Source: an uncultured Candidatus Poseidoniales archaeon (GTDB taxonomy: Archaea; Thermoplasmatota; Poseidoniia; Poseidoniales; Poseidoniaceae). From it: 43,786 nt of DNA. Where the stretch lies: contig CACODE010000011.1 in NCBI GenBank assembly GCA_902625885.1, positions 1 through 43,786 on the forward strand, read 5' to 3'. The notes below the pieces were generated by a model. The model ran no database searches. It saw nothing but the letters and a program-made list of their open reading frames with translations, and was not told the origin of the DNA. The position numbers and the translations under genes were made by a program. Below are positions 16,474 to 26,016 of the stretch, one piece after another (the stretch's first letter is position 1; every line of letters begins with the position of its first letter).

Positions 16474-16518
16474 ACGAATCAAAGAGGGTTTCATATCCTC
16501 CTTCCGCGTCCCGTGACC

Positions 16519-17400
16519 ATGCGTTTCAGGTGTTTTGCAATCATCCCCTCGGTTTTGCTTCTTGTCACCATGAGCTCGGCCTCGGCCCTTCCAGCGGCCC
16601 CGGTAGACAACGGTATGGTCTTTGGCGGTCAATGGACGCCAGCCTCAAACGCAACGGCAGTGACCCACAACCTCAGTGATTTGCCCGCCGTTGCAGAAGT
16701 CCACACCGCCACGTGGTGCGACAATTGCGTAGATGTTGAGCACGCTCTTGAAGACGTTCACGACGCAGGCCACCTCCAGCAATACCACATCCACTCGACC
16801 TTCAACGATCCGTTCGGAACCACCGAACTCAACGAACGCTGGCGGCAAAAATACGAACCGAACAGTCCACCCGGTGTGGTCTTCAACGGCAGCGTGAAGA
16901 AAGTTGGTAGCGTTCCTGATGACGGCGACCTGGTAAACGAATTCACCAACCTTGCCCAACGAGACTTGGCCCTAGGCGAGGGCACCACCATGTTTTCCTG
17001 GACGCCCACCACCGATTCTTCTGGAACCTTTGGTTGGGCTCTCGATTTGGAGCAGCGACACTTGGAGAACGCCACGCTGAACGTCACGGCATGGATTGTT
17101 GAAACCGCAAGCGACTACGAAGATGGGCAGAATGGCCTTGGCACTTATCCCCACATCGTGCGTCAGATAATCGGTTTGGGTGACGCCTCTCAAGGCACGG
17201 CCACGATTCAACTCCCAACCCCTAACGACGGCAACGACCTTGAGGTGCACCTCATCTATGAAGTGATGCCGAATATCCCCGAACCTGTTGAAGAAGAGCC
17301 TGTTCAAGAAAGCGAGGATACGCCCGCTCTGTCCTTGATCTCAACGATGATGGTCGTTGGGCTGGCTCTTGCCCTCACCCAAAGAGACCGTCAGGTATGA
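16519..17400 (+). CDS. exported thioredoxin-like protein with C-terminal anchor
   Basis: A protein of 293 residues. Residues 1-24 form a signal peptide (hydrophobic IIPSVLLLVTM then ASA). A thioredoxin-like segment follows with the redox pair in TWCDNC (Cys67 and Cys70) and a possible cis-proline in NSPPGVVFNG. The second half is a beta-rich domain with several N-x-T/S sites, then an acidic Pro/Glu linker and a C-terminal hydrophobic helix ending in RDRQV, so the protein is likely tethered on the outer face. It may handle disulfides in secreted proteins, though peroxidase or metal-related roles are possible. ATG at 16519 is used; a GTG at 16513 is in frame. It starts 45 bases after the TFB-like gene and its 3' end overlaps the opposite gene by 26 bases. 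Confidence 0.75.
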   Translation: MRFRCFAIIPSVLLLVTMSSASALPAAPVDNGMVFGGQWTPASNATAVTHNLSDLPAVAEVHTATWCDNCVDVEHALEDVHDAGHLQQYHIHSTFNDPFGTTELNERWRQKYEPNSPPGVVFNGSVKKVGSVPDDGDLVNEFTNLAQRDLALGEGTTMFSWTPTTDSSGTFGWALDLEQRHLENATLNVTAWIVETASDYEDGQNGLGTYPHIVRQIIGLGDASQGTATIQLPTPNDGNDLEVHLIYEVMPNIPEPVEEEPVQESEDTPALSLISTMMVVGLALALTQRDRQV

Positions 17401-19732
17401 ACTCCTGCTGGTCATTGGCATCCGCCCGGATTGGTTTCCGTTGGTCCCGGTGGTCGACGTGCAGTTGCCAACGAAAGTGCGGAACAGAGTGCGGCGGGGC
17501 CACCACATCCACGTAGTTCCACCACCGTGGCGGCGCTCCCCGTACCCGTTGCGCAACCTGCGCGTCGCGCAGCAGCTCGGTTAATCGAAGTCTGGCGTTG
17601 GGACGAGGGTGATCTCGACGTACGTACACGGTATACTCTCCGTCAACATCGTGTTTCACATAACCCAGGGCCCTTCCAATCCGAGAGAGGAACTTGCGTT
17701 CGATATCGGAGCGAACCGTCACCTGAAGTTCAGTGTGCTCGAAAGAGAGGGGCGAGCCGTTCGTGTTTGGAAGGCGGAACGTAGCGTTCATTGGCTGCAG
17801 CACAAGAACCTCCCAAACCCGTGCGAAGACCTCGCACCATCGGCGTTCACCGTCCCGAATGTCGCCTTCTAGGTGGACATCGTCAAATCTTCGAGGATTC
17901 ATGAGGTGATGAAACCGGCGCTGGAGAACCGCTTCGTGTATGTCGCCAAACCAGTGTCTGTCGGACGGGCGTTCGTGCCGATTGGCATCGTAAGGACGGA
18001 CGGTCCTCCGCCATTCATTCACCACATCGTTGTATGGAAATTCACCCTGGTTCTCTAGCGCTTCGCCAAAACGGTCAATCCATCGAGCCGAGCTACGAGC
18101 CTCAAAGTCCCTGCTGTGCCGATTTCGCAGAATCAACTCTTGGAGCGGATGTCTTCGCCGCCGCTGGTCTTGCAACCCGTTCGCTGCCCTGCCCCACCGA
18201 TAATGGGCGAGTGAGGGTTGTTGGTTACCATCGGACGGCGTCCCAATCGCATCCAGCCAGTGCTGGTCAATGTTGTTGTAAGGAAAAGCGAACGGAGGGT
18301 TGCTAATGATGAGTTCATTCAGACTTTCGATGTCCCTGCACGCAGAAACATCGTTGACCATGGAGAGCAACACGCCTCCTAGCGTATCGCCGAGCGGGAC
18401 TTTTCTGGCGAAATGACCGCTGTGAATGCAGATGCGTCGCATTCTGTTCGGATTGATGTCGATGACGTGTTGAATGTTGTAAGGCGCACCGTGTTGACCG
18501 TGACCTACCGTGATTTCATAGAAGTGGCCAAGTTTGCCCAAAACGAGCGCCTTGTCGTGTTGAAGAAACACGTTCTTCTCAAGGCCGTTCATGATTTCAT
18601 GGCAAAATTGCAACGACTTCACAAGCGGTTCGGACGGTTGCCCCGGGTCGACATAAGCCACCGACCAGTTGTGTTGCAACCCAAGCAGCAGGGTTCCAGC
18701 CTCCGAGCTAAGCGGTGAGAGAGCGAGGGAGCAGAGAAAGGCCCACAAGGCCGGTTCGTTCGGTACTTGGATAAGCCGGAGGGGGCCCGAGCTGGTACGG
18801 GTTCGAAACTTGAGGTTCTTTGCTCCCAATTCCAGAGCCCACTTTTGTGTCTGGGCGCGCGTGGTTTCTTTCTCAAACGACTGCCATGAGCGCATCCACG
18901 GCGTATCGTAGGCGTGAAACAACCCGGGTGGATGGTTAGAAAGGGCGTTTTGAAACAGCCGCTCCATGTTGACGGGGCGCTGGCCTAGGAGATGCGTCTG
19001 AATATCGTGAGCCCAAGCCAGCATCGGTACGCACTCCGAAGATTCCATCGCCAACGTTCGGTCCACCTTGAGCCGGTTTGAGAGCCACAAGAGCATGCCT
19101 GCTAGAGGTCGATAAGGAGAGCGTAAGCCCCGGTGGCCGCCGGCGAAACGACGGCGCTGTGCCCTGGGCAAATGTTCCGGGCGCTCGGGCATGACGGATG
19201 TTGCGAGCAAAAGAAGGGCTGGAATGTCCCAACCCATGCGCTTGTCTCCCTCTCCGAGCAACGAGAACACGGTGTACAGGCTAAGGCCGTGAAGACGGAC
19301 GCCGTTCAAACTCCATGAAGAATCAAGAAATCGAAGGGTTGAACCGTCGCGAAATTTGATGCCTTCTTGCAAGAAGATCTCCTGAGCGGACGAAAGCCCG
19401 TTTCCCTTCAAGACCGAATCCGCCAGCAAACGAAACTCGTTTGAGGACGCAACGTGCTCTGCAAGAGGATCTTGGCCGTTTTCCAAGCGAGCCCAAGACA
19501 CGTGTTCGCTATCGCAGGTGTTGTTCATCAGTGTCTTCCATTTCTTGTATGACGGCCCGCCCGGCCCACCGAAGAGCGCCATCGCCCGTTCGTGTTCTTC
19601 AGGAGGTATCTGGATGCTCCAGCCTTTTCGAGGTTCAAAATCGATCATCGACTGACACCACTCGCAGGCGTGATAGCCTTCATCGGATGCTGGGTTGTAA
19701 ACACATGGCGTCTCGCGCACGCTGCTTGACAT
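17375..19732 (-). CDS. unrecognised 785-residue protein with methyltransferase-like NPPF motif
   Basis: I do not recognise this family. Visible features are an N-terminal CEWC pair with another cysteine (NNTC) about 50 residues on; a helical middle part; a segment VIDINPNRMRR followed after about 50 residues by IISNPPFAFPYNN, which looks like motifs II and IV of N6-adenine methyltransferases; and a C-terminal half rich in Arg, His and Trp (for example RRRRHPLQEL). A clear glycine-rich motif I is not seen, so either it is degenerate or the resemblance is by chance. No signal peptide. It is the last gene of the MCM-GatE run. ATG at 19732 is used; a TTG at 19768 would overlap the stop of the aldolase gene as TTGA. 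A nucleic-acid-related role is a weak guess. Confidence 0.7.
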   Translation of the reverse strand: MSSSVRETPCVYNPASDEGYHACEWCQSMIDFEPRKGWSIQIPPEEHERAMALFGGPGGPSYKKWKTLMNNTCDSEHVSWARLENGQDPLAEHVASSNEFRLLADSVLKGNGLSSAQEIFLQEGIKFRDGSTLRFLDSSWSLNGVRLHGLSLYTVFSLLGEGDKRMGWDIPALLLLATSVMPERPEHLPRAQRRRFAGGHRGLRSPYRPLAGMLLWLSNRLKVDRTLAMESSECVPMLAWAHDIQTHLLGQRPVNMERLFQNALSNHPPGLFHAYDTPWMRSWQSFEKETTRAQTQKWALELGAKNLKFRTRTSSGPLRLIQVPNEPALWAFLCSLALSPLSSEAGTLLLGLQHNWSVAYVDPGQPSEPLVKSLQFCHEIMNGLEKNVFLQHDKALVLGKLGHFYEITVGHGQHGAPYNIQHVIDINPNRMRRICIHSGHFARKVPLGDTLGGVLLSMVNDVSACRDIESLNELIISNPPFAFPYNNIDQHWLDAIGTPSDGNQQPSLAHYRWGRAANGLQDQRRRRHPLQELILRNRHSRDFEARSSARWIDRFGEALENQGEFPYNDVVNEWRRTVRPYDANRHERPSDRHWFGDIHEAVLQRRFHHLMNPRRFDDVHLEGDIRDGERRWCEVFARVWEVLVLQPMNATFRLPNTNGSPLSFEHTELQVTVRSDIERKFLSRIGRALGYVKHDVDGEYTVYVRRDHPRPNARLRLTELLRDAQVAQRVRGAPPRWWNYVDVVAPPHSVPHFRWQLHVDHRDQRKPIRADANDQQEFIPDGLFG

Positions 19733-19764
19733 GAAAGCCAAATTGGGTGAGGCTTTTTCAAGAA

Positions 19765-20811
19765 TCAACCAAACAATTCGTGCGATATGGCCTCAAATCG
19801 ATCGACGTCCTCGTCGGTGATGTGAAGATGGACGACCACGCGGATTCGATTGGCACTCAAATCAAACATGTCCACGCCGTGCCGAGCGTACTTCTCAACA
19901 ACCTCTGAGGCGGGTCCGTTGGTTTCAGCGTAGATCATGTTGGTTTGGACCGTAGACAAGTCAACGGTAAACATGGGCAAATCGTTCAGCATTTTGGCGA
20001 TTCGTTGCGCTCTATGGTGGTCGTCAATCAGACGCTCAACATGGTTGTCAAGCGCGTGAAGGCAGGCCGCTGCCAGCAGACCTGCCTGTCTCCACCCTCC
20101 TCCGAACATCTTCCGCCATCGATGGGCTCGAGCGATGAAGGCAGAGGACCCCACCAGCACCGAGCCAACGGGAGCGCCGAGGCCTTTTGAAAAGCAAATC
20201 GACACGGAGTCGTAGTGTTCACACATTCGAGAGACATCAACACCCGTGGCGATGGCCGCATTGAATATCCGAGCCCCGTCAATGTGGGTTGCGCAACCGA
20301 GCGACTTGGCAACCTTCGCAATTTCATCAAACGTTTCTTGTTCATAACATGAACCACCGCCAAGGTTGGACGTGTTCTCAACACAGACCAAGGAACCGTT
20401 TGGGTAGTGGCTTCCCGAACCTTCGGCCTTCCGAACGGCCGAGCGAACTTGCGCAGGCGTCATGAGGCCACTTTCGCTGTCCACCAAGGCGATGGATGCG
20501 CCGCAAAGGGCGGCGTAACCTCCGCCCTCATATCGGTATATGTGAGCCGTTTTATCGCACACAATTTCATCACCGGGGACGGTGTGTGTCCGAAGCGCAA
20601 TGGCATTGGACATCGTTCCAGAGGCGACAAACAACCCTGCTTCTTTCCCAAACATCGCTGCGACCCTGTCCTGGAGCTCGATGACCGTTGGGTCATCGCC
20701 GAGAACGTCATCGCCAACCGATGCACGGTGCATTGCTTCGCGCATGGCAGCGGTCGGTTGCGTGACGGTGTCTGAGCGGAAGTCAATTCGATCTGAAGAA
20801 TACTCTCGCAT
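19765..20811 (-). CDS. ltaE: L-threonine aldolase (low specificity, PLP-dependent)
   Basis: A protein of 348 residues, normal for the family, which splits threonine or allo-threonine into glycine and acetaldehyde. Marks include the N-terminal IDFRSDTVTQPT, the loop SVGDDVLGDDPT, HIDGARIFNAA with the aspartate that contacts the PLP ring nitrogen, and SICFSKGLGAPVGS with Lys209 forming the Schiff base. It lies 37 bases downstream of the Pth2 gene and just upstream of the unrecognised 785-residue gene. There is no clear ribosome site before ATG at 20811. Glycine supply for one-carbon metabolism is the usual role; the operon position next to translation genes does not by itself suggest a special one. 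Confidence 0.92.
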   Translation of the reverse strand: MREYSSDRIDFRSDTVTQPTAAMREAMHRASVGDDVLGDDPTVIELQDRVAAMFGKEAGLFVASGTMSNAIALRTHTVPGDEIVCDKTAHIYRYEGGGYAALCGASIALVDSESGLMTPAQVRSAVRKAEGSGSHYPNGSLVCVENTSNLGGGSCYEQETFDEIAKVAKSLGCATHIDGARIFNAAIATGVDVSRMCEHYDSVSICFSKGLGAPVGSVLVGSSAFIARAHRWRKMFGGGWRQAGLLAAACLHALDNHVERLIDDHHRAQRIAKMLNDLPMFTVDLSTVQTNMIYAETNGPASEVVEKYARHGVDMFDLSANRIRVVVHLHITDEDVDRFEAISHELFG

Positions 20812-20848: not shown

Positions 20849-21265
20849 TTACAACAGTTTCAGGTGTCCGGTCAGTTCGTCGAGGACCGATTCATCAGCG
20901 GGACCAAGCGCCAACACCGTCTTTGAGCCCTTTGGGATTTGGGTATGCCCGGCATCCTGCGTCATGTGGTGGGCAACATCTCGGGCCTTAGCACCGTCAA
21001 CCAGAGTTGCAAAATGACTTTCGTCGGGCACTTTTAAGCAAATTTTTTTCTGACCGGTGGCCAACCAAGCCTCCAACGCCGCAGGGTGCGTCACCCCGGC
21101 GTTAAGGAAGGCTTGAACAGAAGCATGCCCCACCTGTGCTGCAATTTTCCCCTTTCCCATTTTTAGGGATTGATTGACAACGCAAACCAGTTTCACGGGC
21201 GTCCTGACCGCCCGGTGTCTGGGACGCGGCGCCGTCATTCGGTGGAGAAACGAACGAAAACCCAT
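20849..21265 (-). CDS. pth2: peptidyl-tRNA hydrolase, archaeal/eukaryal type (Pth2)
   Basis: A protein of 138 residues; Pth2 releases peptides from tRNAs that fall off the ribosome. The core has NQSLKMGKGKIAAQVGHASV, where the lysine and histidine form the active surface, a central WLATGQKKICLKV strand, and the C-terminal signature QDAGHTQIPKGSKTVL followed by ALGPAD and TGHLKLL. About 20 extra basic residues precede the core (FLHRMTAPRPRHRAVRTP); an internal ATG at 21238 could be the true start, but GGTGA sits four bases before ATG at 21265. It lies nine bases after a second Pth2-like gene, making an unusual tandem. This copy is the better match to canonical Pth2. Confidence 0.9.
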   Translation of the reverse strand: MGFRSFLHRMTAPRPRHRAVRTPVKLVCVVNQSLKMGKGKIAAQVGHASVQAFLNAGVTHPAALEAWLATGQKKICLKVPDESHFATLVDGAKARDVAHHMTQDAGHTQIPKGSKTVLALGPADESVLDELTGHLKLL

Positions 21266-21274
21266 GCATTCACC

Positions 21275-21631
21275 TCATAAGGCCTCCAAATGGCGAAGAA
21301 GGGCATCCATGGCCCTTCGAGGGCCCATGATGCCCAACACGGTGAGCGTCCCTGCGGGCACTTCGGTGTGTCCGGCGTCCGATACCAAGGTCGCATAGCA
21401 CCCTGCCGGAACTTTGGCGTGCAATTCGTTCATCAACGAGAGGTTTTCAACGGCCAAGACAACCTTCCGAGCACCGCCTGCGCGCCATCTTTCCAACAGC
21501 CGAGAACGCCGGGCCAGCCGAACAACATCAACGGCAGCATGAGCACACTGAGCGGCGATTTTACCGGTCGTCAAGGCGAGGTCTTGCCGGACGATGAGGG
21601 CCATGGTTGGCGCATCATGCATCGACGCCAT
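21275..21631 (-). CDS. second Pth2-family protein, paralogue of its neighbour
   Basis: A protein of 118 residues with the same fold marks as Pth2: LTTGKIAAQCAHAAV, WRAGGARKVVLAV, SDAGHTEVPAGTLTVL and IMGPRRAMDALLRHLEAL. The key lysine of the GK(I/V)AAQ stretch, the histidine and the DAGHT signature are retained, but the usual MGKGK loop is replaced by LALTTGK and GPA by GPR. It may be a second active hydrolase, a subunit of a heterodimer with its neighbour, or a divergent paralogue. ATG at 21631 is chosen because GGTGA (21637-21641) is five bases upstream; in-frame ATGs at 21622 and 21604 are alternatives. It overlaps the upstream membrane gene by 17 bases. Confidence 0.85.
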   Translation of the reverse strand: MASMHDAPTMALIVRQDLALTTGKIAAQCAHAAVDVVRLARRSRLLERWRAGGARKVVLAVENLSLMNELHAKVPAGCYATLVSDAGHTEVPAGTLTVLGIMGPRRAMDALLRHLEAL

Positions 21632-22274
21632 GACCTTCACCAATCGCTAGGACATCTTCTTCAGTTGTCGTTAATCCGCTCAAGAACGAATGGAGGACAG
21701 GCCCCATCCAGACAGCGAACGCCACGTTACCAAGAGCGTGGATGGCGTCAAACGGCATACCCTGCCCGAGGAGAACCAAAAATTGGGTGAAAGTCAATTC
21801 ACTGGTGATCAGGGAGAAGGTGGAAATCAAACCGAAAAGAGGTGCGGAAACCGCTGCGAAAACGCACAGGCGTGGAAGGTTCAATTCCCCATTTTCAAAC
21901 AGCGTCGCTCGAGCGCCAAGCACAGCGATGGTTGACCAACCAATGGCTTGGAACAGCGTCCACCAGCCGTGACCGATGAGCAGGTTGGAGAGGAGCGTCA
22001 CGAGAATGGCAAACGCTACGCCTCTCTTGGCACCAAGATGCGCGCCAACAAGAAGTGCAGCGACCGTGACCGGTTGGACGTTTGGCAACGGCTGCATGAA
22101 GACGCGCAAAGCCGTCATGGAGAGGACCATGGTTGCGAGCATGGCCACAGACATTCGATTTGTCCGGGGTGGGGCGATGAGAAAGGCGAACGCGATTCCG
22201 ACGAGCACAATGTCGAGAAAGGCTGAGCCGAGCGGGGACAATTCTGGGCCGTGCACCCCGAAGGCCTGGAACAT
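21615..22274 (-). CDS. ECF transporter S-component-like membrane protein
   Basis: A protein of 219 residues with about five or six hydrophobic helices. The stretch LPNVQPVTVAALLVGAHLG, then LLSNLLIGHGWWTLFQAIGW, matches the pattern of ECF S components in which a loop with a GxG-W-T-x2-Q signature precedes a helix. S components bind a vitamin and use a shared energising module of T protein and ATPases, none of which is in the window. The gene upstream encodes a DUF4430 protein, a domain known from cobalamin-binding proteins, so cobalamin or a related corrinoid is the best guess for the substrate. ATG at 22274 has GGAGTG just upstream; a TTG at 22319 overlapping the previous stop is the alternative. 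Another small-molecule membrane transporter is possible. Confidence 0.65.
   Translation of the reverse strand: MFQAFGVHGPELSPLGSAFLDIVLVGIAFAFLIAPPRTNRMSVAMLATMVLSMTALRVFMQPLPNVQPVTVAALLVGAHLGAKRGVAFAILVTLLSNLLIGHGWWTLFQAIGWSTIAVLGARATLFENGELNLPRLCVFAAVSAPLFGLISTFSLITSELTFTQFLVLLGQGMPFDAIHALGNVAFAVWMGPVLHSFLSGLTTTEEDVLAIGEGHGVDA
21637..21641 (-). promoter_or_regulatory. ribosome binding site for the second Pth2 gene
   Basis: GGTGA on the minus strand, within the 3' end of the S-component gene, five bases before ATG at 21631. It decides between three clustered in-frame ATGs. Confidence 0.5.
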
Positions 22275-22315
22275 GAACACTCCGAGGAGGGGGCCATCCT
22301 TGAGGCTTGCCACCG

Positions 22316-23992
22316 TCAAACCAGACGCCAGCGCAACACGACGGTGTCGTCGATCAAGGCCCTATCAACCGAGACCGTCCCGCGTTCGCCGTTGATGAAA
22401 TATTCCCACCCCGAGTCGGACGTGCCGTTGATGGTTGTGATGTAAACGCCAAGCGACGTGTCCGTGCTTTCCAGCAAAAGACCGCTCTTTGCGGCGGCCT
22501 CCTGGGTCAAAGACCAAACATCGGAATGAGCGCCCAATCCCCCGACCACCACGTCCGATTCCGAGAATTCAAACACCACAACTTGCGTGCCAACCCACGA
22601 CTCGGGCCACGACGAATTCCAGTCTGTTTGGGAAGAATTCGAAGCCTCGTTGGTCAGAGCGTTGTTCCAAGATGTGGACAAATCCGGCAGCATCAACACG
22701 CCCAGGACAACGGTGCAGAGCGTCAACACGCGCCACGCGTCTCGCACACGGCCATTCTTGCCAAACCAAGCAACAACAGCCAACCCCGTCGTCAGGCCGA
22801 ACGTGCCGATAACGGCGAGATGATTCGCCTCGTCTTCAGGGCCGCTGAGAGGATCGGGCACGTCAATTTGTGAGGTGTTTGTTCTGTAAGCCATGAGAAC
22901 GCCAGCATCGTTGCCGAGGAAGAGGTGGGTGGCTGTTCGCCCTGCCGCCGACGTGCCGTAGCCGTCGTGGGGCGTGGAGAATTGGGTGTGATTTTCGAAA
23001 CTTCCCGTTTCGTTGAGCCTGACCATCAACCACCCCCCCTGAGGCGTGTTGACCGGCGCCATGAAGCCGCTTGAGGAAACCAGGGACATCTCTCCGTTCA
23101 CCTTGGTGGGCAGAGCGTCGACAACGCGACATGCAGAATCGCAACGAACGGTGGTCAGGCCAGCGCTATCACCAAACACAACATTTTCGCCCACGCGAAG
23201 CGGTACAGCGGGCGAGGGCCCGAGCTGCGCAAGGGTTTGGAACGTTGCCGACGTGATGTTGTAAACCACCAGCACGCTTGACGTGGCCTCTTGAACATGG
23301 AGCAACAGGCGGTCGTCAACAACGACGGGCGCGTGTCGTATCGAACCTGAAACGTTCCAGGAGTCAACAACCGTGCCGTTGTGACTCACCCTCCAGAGCC
23401 GGTTGTCTTCGCTTCCAACCCAGTACCCGTGATGAGTGGCTGAAACACCGTTCCGCCAGCCAATGCTCAGTTCGACCTCAAAATCCATTTCCCCGTCGGC
23501 CAAACAGAACCGAGCAAGGCCGTTGCCCGTGGCCACCGTCACTTTGTCGCTCTCAACAAGCGGTGCACCGGTGATGCCCCGAGATACCGGCGTGGTCGTC
23601 GCCGTCCAATAGAGGGTCCCGTTGGATGGATGAAACGCCATGAGCTCGCCGTTTGTCCAACCAACCAGCAGCAGTTCAGGCCAGGCACCGCACGGCCCTT
23701 CACCGGCTTGAAGCCTGACCAAGGGAGACATGTCGTGTTGCATCGTGTTGTTGTTTGTGTACGACCAAATCTGTTCACCCTCGTGGGAAAAAGCCAGCAC
23801 TTCCGGTCGTTCAACACCCGTCCAGAACCCGGAGGTGCGGACATAAACGCGGCTCTCGTCAACCACGGGGGTGGTTGTGAGGTAGCCTGGTCCCACGTCC
23901 TGTTGCCAAGCAAGGTTCCACGGTGTTGCCGATGAAGGTGGTAAAGCAACGGCGAGCAGCACACCAACAATGAGAAGCGACCAACGCCTCAT
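22316..23992 (-). CDS. exported PQQ-type beta-propeller with C-terminal DUF4430 domain
   Basis: A protein of 558 residues. A signal peptide (MRRWSLLIVGVLLAVALPP, then SSA) leads into about 360 residues of beta-propeller repeats of the PQQ/WD-like kind: strands ending in phrases such as VLAFSHEGEQIWSY, ELMAFHPSNGTLYW and RLWRVSHNGTV. Two membrane helices follow (about HLAVIGTFGLTTGLAVVAWF and VLTLCTVVLGVLMLP). The last 70 residues match DUF4430, the transcobalamin-like C-terminal domain: DSGWEYFINGERG then a VVLRWRL end. If both helices span, propeller and DUF4430 lie on the same, outer side. Together with the S component encoded next it suggests surface capture of a vitamin. ATG at 23992 follows GAGG closely; GTG at 24001 would overlap the GatE stop. 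Acts outside the cell; ligand unproven. Confidence 0.78.
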   Translation of the reverse strand: MRRWSLLIVGVLLAVALPPSSATPWNLAWQQDVGPGYLTTTPVVDESRVYVRTSGFWTGVERPEVLAFSHEGEQIWSYTNNNTMQHDMSPLVRLQAGEGPCGAWPELLLVGWTNGELMAFHPSNGTLYWTATTTPVSRGITGAPLVESDKVTVATGNGLARFCLADGEMDFEVELSIGWRNGVSATHHGYWVGSEDNRLWRVSHNGTVVDSWNVSGSIRHAPVVVDDRLLLHVQEATSSVLVVYNITSATFQTLAQLGPSPAVPLRVGENVVFGDSAGLTTVRCDSACRVVDALPTKVNGEMSLVSSSGFMAPVNTPQGGWLMVRLNETGSFENHTQFSTPHDGYGTSAAGRTATHLFLGNDAGVLMAYRTNTSQIDVPDPLSGPEDEANHLAVIGTFGLTTGLAVVAWFGKNGRVRDAWRVLTLCTVVLGVLMLPDLSTSWNNALTNEASNSSQTDWNSSWPESWVGTQVVVFEFSESDVVVGGLGAHSDVWSLTQEAAAKSGLLLESTDTSLGVYITTINGTSDSGWEYFINGERGTVSVDRALIDDTVVLRWRLV

Positions 23993-23997
23993 GAGCC

Positions 23998-26016
23998 TCA
24001 CTCCAGAGCGGACTGAATCGCTGCTTTGAGTAACGCGCTCACCTCTTTGCCGTCGGCACCACCGGCCGCCTGCATGACCACGCCCATCAGCGGACCCATG
24101 GCTCCCATGCCGCGCTCCTTCACGAAGGTCAATCGGTCTGAAACGATGGCCTTGATGATGTCTTCGAGGCCGCCGATGTCGGCCGGTGCCAAGTCGTTCT
24201 CAAGACAATACTGGCGCAGCGCTTGCAACGAAGGGGTTCCGTTGCGATGGGCTTCAACGACGGCATCGGTGTTATCTCTGGCCAAGGCCCCCTCCTGCCG
24301 GAGGACCAAGACGTTGACCAGCGTTTGAGGCGCCACGCTGTCGTAGTTGAGCAGGAGTGTGGCCCATGCCTTGGCAGGCAACCCGCTGGCATGCTCGCAA
24401 AACACGTCGTCCAGCTCTCTTGACAACAACTGGTCAGACTGATCGTTGGATATGTCGTGTTCGGTCAATCGCTCGGCACGTTCGTCGTCCGACATGGGCA
24501 AGGATTCAACAATTGATGCCCAATGTTCTGCCGTGAGTTGACGAGGCGGAATGTCCGTTTCAGGATACATCCGAGACCGTCCTGGAAGGGGGCGCATTGG
24601 TGAGGTTGTGCCGTCCAGAGGCGCACCTTTCTTCACCACGACGTTGCGCACTTCCTGCGGCACACGATGCCATGCCATGAGGGCTCGATTGTGCACGGCC
24701 TCCAGAGCGAGGCTCGCTTGCCATTCTGGTGCGCAACAAAGAACGAAACCGTCGCCATCAGCAAGTTTGAGTTGGGTGCGTACGGCGTTCACTTCCTCAG
24801 CCGTGATGCCGTAAGCCGGAAGTTCGTCAGCGTGGAAGATGCCTTTCACACCGGCAAGTTTTGCCGCACCCGCCAACTCGCGTCCGAGGCGAGGCAGTTG
24901 AGATCCGTCCTCGTCCATCGCCTTGGTGCCCAACCTTCCGAGCAGGTCTTTCAGCGGGAGCGCCAACACGACCGAGCCGTTGGAAAGGGATTCGCTCACC
25001 ATGCCAGAGGCGGTTGAGGAGAAGGCATCAGAGACGTCATGGAGGGAAAAAGGAAGGTGCTTGGAAACGGTTTCGTGCACTTCCGCTTCGATGGCTGCAT
25101 CATCGTCGTCCCGGTTTGACGGAAGAGGTGGAAGGCCGAGGAGGCTGCGCAATTCGTTAGCAAGGCGGTAAAAATGAAGTTGGCGGGCCATTTCAAGGCG
25201 GATGATTTGAGGAATCCAACCGAGGTCTTGACATCCTTTGATCTCCACCCTATCACCGGCGGCGATGGAGACGTTCAGGTCTTGCCGTATGCTTCCCAAT
25301 CCACGCCGGACGCGCCGGGTACGCCGCAAAACCCGGCCAAGAGCGATGGCTGTTTTCTGAGCATGATCTGGGGTTTTGACGTCCGGAGCGGTGGCGATTT
25401 CGATGAGGGGGAGGCCGAGACGGTCGAGGTTGTACATCACCTGCTGACCGTGGTCCAAGTTGAGCGTGTCAAGTTTTCGAGCGCTGTCCTCCTCAAGACA
25501 GACGACGTCGATGCCAACGGGCCCTTCTTCTGTCTCAAGCACCCCGTCTGTTGCCACCAGTGATGTGCGCTGAAAACCGCTTGTGTTTGAACCATCAACC
25601 ACGGTTTTGCGCATGGTTTGAACGAGCGTGACCGGTTTTGATTGCAACAGCGCAGCCACGGTGAGCGTGATGTCAACGGCCTCCTCGTCCAGAGCAACAG
25701 GCGGCTGCTCGTCAAGTTCAATCAAGCCGGCGTTTGGGGATTGAGCGTAGACAAAGGTTCGGTTTCGTTTGGACTCGAACTTCGCGGCGACGTCCACGAC
25801 CCCACCTTCACCTCGACTTGCCCTCAAGCGACGTTCGAACCGTGGCCAATCGTCGGGCAACGTGTCAACGGTTACATCGTAGAGTTCGCCCGACTGCCGG
25901 GAGTGGAGTTTCCCGGTCGCAAGTTGCTGGTGGACCTCAATGCCGCACATGAAACCGAGTTGCTCGGGGTCGAGTGCCGATGGCTTGCGAACTTCGCCTT
26001 GCGGTTCATCGGCCAT
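23998..26016 (-). CDS. gatE: glutamyl-tRNA(Gln) amidotransferase subunit E
   Basis: A protein of 672 residues, somewhat longer than typical GatE (about 620-640). GatE is the tRNA-binding kinase/transferase subunit that, with the asparaginase-like GatD, turns Glu-tRNA(Gln) into Gln-tRNA(Gln) in archaea. Recognisable parts are the GatB-like cradle start CGIEVHQQLATGKLHSR, GSNTSGFQRTSLVA, CLEEDSARK, YNLDRLGLPLIEIAT and RQDLNVSI, then a GAD-type insertion with VKGIFHADELPAYGI, and a C-terminal helical tail region ending around IGGLEDIIKAIV. GatD is not in the window. It lies 48 bases downstream of MCM and almost abuts the DUF4430 gene. A weak GGGT precedes ATG at 26016. Identification is firm, and it is strong evidence for an archaeal host. 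Confidence 0.95.
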   Translation of the reverse strand: MADEPQGEVRKPSALDPEQLGFMCGIEVHQQLATGKLHSRQSGELYDVTVDTLPDDWPRFERRLRASRGEGGVVDVAAKFESKRNRTFVYAQSPNAGLIELDEQPPVALDEEAVDITLTVAALLQSKPVTLVQTMRKTVVDGSNTSGFQRTSLVATDGVLETEEGPVGIDVVCLEEDSARKLDTLNLDHGQQVMYNLDRLGLPLIEIATAPDVKTPDHAQKTAIALGRVLRRTRRVRRGLGSIRQDLNVSIAAGDRVEIKGCQDLGWIPQIIRLEMARQLHFYRLANELRSLLGLPPLPSNRDDDDAAIEAEVHETVSKHLPFSLHDVSDAFSSTASGMVSESLSNGSVVLALPLKDLLGRLGTKAMDEDGSQLPRLGRELAGAAKLAGVKGIFHADELPAYGITAEEVNAVRTQLKLADGDGFVLCCAPEWQASLALEAVHNRALMAWHRVPQEVRNVVVKKGAPLDGTTSPMRPLPGRSRMYPETDIPPRQLTAEHWASIVESLPMSDDERAERLTEHDISNDQSDQLLSRELDDVFCEHASGLPAKAWATLLLNYDSVAPQTLVNVLVLRQEGALARDNTDAVVEAHRNGTPSLQALRQYCLENDLAPADIGGLEDIIKAIVSDRLTFVKERGMGAMGPLMGVVMQAAGGADGKEVSALLKAAIQSALE

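Follow-up and report, generated by a model that had tools for sequence, protein, structure and literature searches.

Vitamin B12 is handled by several described protein systems, parts of which recur in the locus reported here. In the energy-coupling factor (ECF) transporter ECF-CbrT of Lactobacillus delbrueckii (entry 6FNP; PMC5997447) the S component CbrT needs the module EcfT/EcfAA'. BtuM is described as an S-component fold that serves B12 without an ECF module, with the cobalt ligated by cysteine and a sequence said to be unrelated to any other protein (PMC6072759). The alpha and beta domains of transcobalamin, which is treated here together with intrinsic factor and haptocorrin, are reported to clamp the corrinoid (PMC4350170), and Bacteroides BtuG is described as a seven-bladed beta-propeller on the cell surface, where it captures B12 for the transporter beside it and works with BtuB at the outer membrane (PMC6143338). 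The locus considered here lies in contig CACODE010000011.1, of which the whole stretch analysed (43,786 nt) is called the window. The source is a metagenome-assembled genome (MAG) of 1.66 Mb in 58 contigs, 70% complete, and its Marine Group II (MGII) label holds because Poseidonia and Candidatus Poseidoniaceae are among the named relatives of the S gene. Two adjacent genes encode an exported beta-propeller protein that ends in a DUF4430 domain and a CbrT-like S component. The pair is read as a corrinoid-uptake system that works without an ECF module and has a membrane-tethered, transcobalamin-like receptor, with a probability of about 0.65.

The sequence of the downstream gene supports its assignment as a CbrT-type (B12-type) S component. 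The protein scores 35.8 bits against Pfam DUF6580 (cut-off 27), and a phmmer search of the PDB with it gave a single match, CbrT (6fnp_A, E 1.5e-10; 1.8e-29 with a profile). The first-pass annotation, made from the DNA alone, had recognized an S component by the loop pattern GxG-W-T-x2-Q; the loop reads GHGWWTLFQ, and the recognition stands. The motifs PNVQPVT and WTxxQ are common to CbrT and the MGII proteins, 18 residues are invariant in 24 MGII S proteins, and 14 of these 18 are identical in CbrT. The MGII proteins have an additional predicted N-terminal helix in comparison to CbrT. They differ from BtuM in being CbrT-like and in having a DUF4430 partner.

The upstream protein had been annotated as an exported propeller with a transcobalamin-like DUF4430 domain at its end, and both parts of that description are borne out. 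A Pfam search finds DUF4430 (PF14478, 26.7 bits, cut-off 23.8), the only such match found in the assembly. The C-terminal 105 residues, aligned with 33 relatives, give an AlphaFold model with a predicted local distance difference test (pLDDT) value of 94.1. Comparing this model with the PDB by Foldseek places only 3u7z, a DUF4430 structure, and intrinsic factor, transcobalamin or haptocorrin at ranks 1–19 (template-modelling score TMq 0.59–0.74, up to 0.74 for 2bb5_A). The solved B12 carriers occupy ranks 3–19 (E 2.1e-4 to 6.4e-3), and the next other fold follows at E 0.12. The domain thus has the fold of the carriers' beta domain, at 10–19% identity over the aligned part. Its profile matches that of bacterial DUF4430 weakly (E 0.0014, 17.5% probability).

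The model of the whole protein (pLDDT 86.8) consists of a propeller (residues 29–373), two helices (394–415 and 419–450) and the DUF4430 domain (473–560). In the PDB it comes closest to BamB and to Cake8, an eight-bladed design, and no BtuG entry is found among the best 50 of 1810 Foldseek rows. The likeness to BtuG is that of a surface propeller beside a putative transporter; the MGII propeller is BamB-like and eight-bladed, with a B12 role that is putative at most. The combination of alpha and beta domains that marks the transcobalamin family is absent: a propeller, a transmembrane hairpin and DUF4430 were found, and no other domain. The alpha domain of transcobalamin is an alpha barrel. In MGII proteins a propeller takes the place of this domain or the place is left empty, and, unlike the carriers, they are membrane-tethered. 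From the basic loop between the two helices of the model, the propeller and DUF4430 are both predicted to face outside. Among 34 aligned proteins, the window's included, 40 of 347 propeller positions are invariant, including W182-R183-N184, R222-H223, Q237 and four cysteines; the polar and aromatic residues among them fit a possible ligand or partner site.

Distribution of the pair and the need for B12

The pair was followed through 115 genomes of the order, that of the window included, with 14 genomes as controls. A profile of the 24 MGII proteins finds the S component in 106 of the 115, in 27 of 28 high-quality genomes and in all 22 genera; Pfam DUF6580 alone undercounts it, at 85 genomes. 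DUF4430 is called by Pfam in 86 genomes at E 0.001 (76 over the cut-off), and all 86 have the S component. In 79 of these the two genes are adjacent on the same strand, in five there is one gene between them, in one they are 9.8 kb apart and in one they lie on different contigs. Eight loci were inspected from the 20 genomes that have the S component and no Pfam DUF4430 call. In six (G022, G032, G039, G050, G055 and G061) a propeller-like or DUF4430-motif protein is found just upstream of S; G057, where the contig ends within the upstream frame, was left unassigned, and G100 has almost no upstream flank. A strong DUF6580 (PF20221) match in G114:C25 (L084) was set aside as a likely contaminant, the contig being one of bacterial-looking genes.

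In the 85 genomes with both genes on one contig, the archaeal families f1 and f2 differ. Genomes of f1 mostly encode the propeller fusion (37 of 43 frames reach 500 aa or more), and those of f2 mostly a stand-alone DUF4430 protein (37 of 42 frames do not exceed 240 aa). Two copies of the stand-alone f2 protein were seen by eye to have lipobox-like N-termini (L095:362-835 and L253:7817-8281). Among the best 80 of 287 GTDB contig loci, 74 have an upstream gene ending in a GW-type DUF4430, as judged by eye; four of the other six have no upstream flank, and in two the motif script found no S. Since the two genes recur in this arrangement throughout the Poseidoniales genomes and in 74 of these 80 loci, the pair is not a product of chance. 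The two sets of counts are not independent, because several contigs are common to both.

The association extends to bacterial plasmids. A tblastn search with the window S component returned 36 plasmid records, of which 20 were listed and 11 annotated regions viewed (the PLSDB gene tables are incomplete). In nine of the 11 a DUF4430 gene is found no more than 5 kb from a CbrT-like S gene; the nine come from lactic acid bacteria and enterococci, and three of them are near copies (Lactococcus twice, E. durans). Five of the nine hold the B12-dependent NrdJ, and four of those five also a cobalamin adenosyltransferase. In the two regions lacking DUF4430 (L. kefiri and L. brevis), EcfT and an ABC (ATP-binding cassette) gene immediately precede S; in the L. 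brevis stretch about 0.7 kb of sequence follows S. These regions agree with the first-pass statement that DUF4430 occurs next to ECF transporters in bacteria. They also divide its proposal of a new form of receptor: the fusion of a propeller to DUF4430 is new, as are the occurrence in archaea and the lack of a recognized module, whereas the pairing of DUF4430 with S is already known in bacteria.

B12-dependent enzymes without full B12 synthesis had also been named as something to look for, and the genomes conform to this for the corrin-pathway marker tested. B12-binding domains are found in 109 of the 115 genomes (12 of 14 controls positive), and CbiC in none (seven of 14 controls positive); CbiC is one marker of the corrin pathway, whose other genes were not searched. 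The window genome encodes methylmalonyl-CoA mutase (L120), and single relatives encode MetH, a mutase that carries MeaB and B12-binding domains, and, next to MeaB, a small B12-binding subunit. FecCD, a possible alternative permease, is found over the cut-off in 18 of the 115 genomes and at E 0.001 in 35. In the window genome its neighbours are Peripla_BP_2, ABC, Fea1, flavodoxin-like and CREG/DUF2470 genes (L078, G000:C5:12000-26000), a cluster that looks like iron or heme uptake, and FecCD was set aside as a BtuC because of these iron- or heme-like neighbours. No other clear B12 importer is seen, and most of the order has none of the FecCD type. According to PMC9296465, which cites Iverson 2012, MGII archaea are auxotrophic for B12 and encode B12 transport. 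The accessible portions of the open-access literature searched hold no report of the present DUF4430–S system or of a named MGII B12 importer, and the point found there for Marine Group II with energy-coupling factor concerns Thermococci. The texts PMC6461757 and PMC6336850 hold no word starting with vitamin, cobalamin or B12.

The ECF module and the docking motif

The principal difference from ECF-CbrT is that most MGII copies have no recognized module. Pfam EcfT (PF02361), which is positive in 10 of the 14 controls, matches none of the 115 genomes and also misses an EcfT-like domain in genus g15. There, in all five genomes, which are those with one gene between DUF4430 and S, the intervening gene encodes a 653-aa chain in which a membrane domain is joined to two ABC domains (for example L081:3222-5180 of G075; also L098–L103, with the chain in two pieces in G107). 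This chain is missed by Pfam CbiQ. The gene order DUF4430 – EcfT – AA' – S is also that of an L. curvatus plasmid. The ABC pair is clear and by profile matches an annotated AA' protein at E 1.3e-21. The membrane domain contains two helices ending in R-G (ERG and SRG/ARG). The coupling helices of EcfT end in R-G, and these ends are also visible in the EcfT alignment. The profile of the membrane domain has only two PDB matches, both to EcfT and both weak (E 0.34 and 0.66); TIGR02454 matches at E 0.2, and direct profile comparison with annotated EcfT is weak (E 0.21, 0.3% probability).

Since this fused chain turned up, the absence of EcfT by Pfam was rejected as proof of a missing module and, given the blind spot of PF02361, the search was repeated with g15 profiles. 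The T-domain profile gives credible matches in g15 only among the 115 genomes; seven others (E 0.06–0.5) look like noise, and four of them cross stops. The fused-chain profile was run on the window genome (G000), on G039, a single-contig MG-II genome of 2.06 Mb, and on G029, G074 and G079. It gives 17 ABC matches with E no higher than 1e-6, each row being one ABC domain, and by eye none stands beside an EcfT-like gene; the flanks hold ABC-F, SufC-, Lol-, NatA-, PhnC- and CcmA-like genes. Outside g15, a search of 340 genomes of the phylum found two double-ABC genes; next to one of these lies a gene that is EcfT-like by eye. The first-pass expectation of an ECF transporter, for which a lack of ECF A/T genes had been named as the refuting result, is thus not supported in the window organism, no ECF A or T genes being recognized in the 70%-complete MAG or in G039.

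The helix-1 AxxxA motif of S components is described as crucial for docking to the ECF module (PMC4820897), and most MGII S proteins differ from CbrT in lacking it. AxxxA is present at the aligned place in five of five g15 proteins, in four of six bacterial CbrT relatives (small residues in all six; six distinct sequences fitting the pattern, from 11 plasmid loci) and, with rows that have X in the helix left out, in five of 121 other MGII proteins, a figure that does not count independent losses because the S sequences are related. The window protein has A-xxx-L at this site. In any register, AxxxA occurs in 10 of 121 MGII proteins, against 23.9 in shuffles. In a tree of 35 chosen S rows, with eight of the 11 plasmid loci included, g15 and the bacteria form one side of a split (97/98) and the remaining MGII rows the other, which conflicts with the grouping of g15 in family f2. 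Gain, transfer or differing constraint may each account for the g15 split.

Proposed mechanism and alternatives

The computed identities, folds, linkage, CbiC absence, B12-binding enzymes, lack of a recognizable ECF module outside one genus and docking-motif loss allow a scheme to be proposed for binding, transport, its direction and its energy source. The DUF4430 protein would be exported and held on the outer membrane face by its transmembrane hairpin, and its DUF4430 domain would capture B12. The propeller might offer a second contact surface for the vitamin, which is the weakest step. B12 would then be handed to the adjacent CbrT-like S component, which, by analogy with CbrT and BtuM, may carry it across the membrane by toppling. 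In the window genome and nearly all its relatives S would work without EcfT/EcfA, as BtuM does, by facilitated diffusion and trapping inside, and in g15 the fused EcfT–EcfA–EcfA'-like chain would power the same system. The missing module removes the ECF label and not the B12 assignment, because BtuM is described as importing B12 without one (PMC6072759). A fuller version is possible, though doubtful: an order-wide importer may have shed its ATP motor, its CbrT-type S component having lost the docking motif and now working with the membrane-tethered receptor, with the eight-bladed propeller replacing the transcobalamin alpha domain as second jaw of the clamp, and g15 keeping or having regained a single-chain motor, in which case one lineage would hold both modes of a single importer.

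Several points weigh against corrinoid uptake without a module. The link between DUF4430 and transcobalamin is by fold, because searching PDB sequences with the DUF4430 profile gave noise only, with no transcobalamin match. The operon neighbours are the housekeeping genes MCM, gatE and PTH2, with no B12 gene among them, a setting that also differs from that of CbrT; Rfam finds no cobalamin riboswitch in the window, and MGII gave no response to B12 addition in the experiments described in PMC9296465. FecCD may act as a B12 permease in the 18 genomes that have it, and the relatedness of the S sequences tempers the docking-motif counts. ABC genes weaker than the 17 matches lie outside that list. 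Finally, PF02361 misses the g15 domain, so another divergent EcfT could be missed; the window genome is 70% complete; and solitary L. delbrueckii CbrT gave no B12-dependent growth in E. coli according to PMC5997447. These last three observations favour a normal ECF transporter whose EcfT/EcfA module, shared or divergent, lies elsewhere in the genome and was missed. Such an arrangement is unlikely, as the T-domain profile finds g15 only, no EcfT-like gene flanks the 17 ABC matches of the five genomes, and the docking motif is lost outside g15.

The remaining alternatives concern what the pair binds and what it does. S components that share a fold can differ in the vitamin they serve, and the operon is without a B12 gene, so that the pair might import or bind a non-corrinoid. 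That the nearest solved S component is CbrT, that the DUF4430 fold resembles the B12 carriers, that five bacterial pairs lie near NrdJ and that B12-binding enzymes occur without CbiC together make this quite improbable. The pair could also be a B12 receptor or sensor in which a module-free S fold senses and does not transport; the S-component fold is described as linking transporters and receptors (PMC11109136), and no module is recognized in most genomes. This is very unlikely in view of the lack of any signalling-domain match on the DUF4430 protein or the S component, the lack of an alternative importer of the FecCD type in most of the order, and the ATP motor at the same place in g15.

Gene neighbourhood and biological significance

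Coordinates of the pair and its direct neighbours are collected in Table 1. On the minus strand of the window MCM comes first, followed by the gatE-like gene, the pair itself (propeller-DUF4430, then the S component) and two PTH2 genes. The GTG start of the propeller frame at 24001 overlaps the gatE stop as GTGA. The ATG of the S gene lies 41 bases past the upstream stop, which the alternative TTG at 22319 overlaps.

Table 1. Position of the two genes, their domains and motifs, and the flanking genes within the window
Feature	Coordinates	Strand	Remarks
Propeller-DUF4430 protein, 558 aa, signal-type N-terminus	22316..23992	-	ATG 23992; frame open to GTG 24001
Eight-bladed BamB/PQQ-like beta-propeller, predicted outside	22877..23917	-	Blade count from Foldseek relatives
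Two-helix membrane hairpin with short basic loop	22652..22822	-	Model; predicted topology
DUF4430 domain, transcobalamin beta-domain fold	22319..22621	-	Pfam and Foldseek of model
CbrT-like S component (DUF6580), 219 aa	21615..22274	-	ATG 22274; frame open to TTG 22319
S-component helix before conserved Arg, A-xxx-L where CbrT and g15 have AxxxA	22107..22148	-	Alignment
PNVQPVT motif of S component, common to CbrT	22065..22085	-	Alignment
GHGWWTLFQ loop of S component; CbrT has GFGIWTLPQ	21948..21974	-	Alignment
gatE-like gene, directly upstream; position kept in most relatives viewed	23998..26016	-	GTGA overlap
PTH2 peptidyl-tRNA hydrolase gene, directly downstream; position kept in most relatives viewed	21275..21643	-	

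The PTH2 genes are in tandem (20849-21265 and 21275-21643), and the relatives viewed keep one or both there. Further along, a 797-aa protein (17375-19768) has no Pfam or NCBIfam match, and several relatives encode a protein of similar length at that place (e.g. L083). An exported protein (16513-17400) gives a thioredoxin match below threshold only, with the same neighbours in relatives.

MGII archaea are called B12-auxotrophic in PMC9296465, and the pair is an order-wide candidate for their importer. It links the prokaryotic DUF4430 family with the fold of the human B12 carriers. With a module in one genus and none found elsewhere, the order also offers a natural comparison for the ATP-free movement of vitamins by S components. 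MGII archaea are abundant in the ocean, and with this pair they can probably scavenge B12 in the absence of the usual ATP-driven motor.

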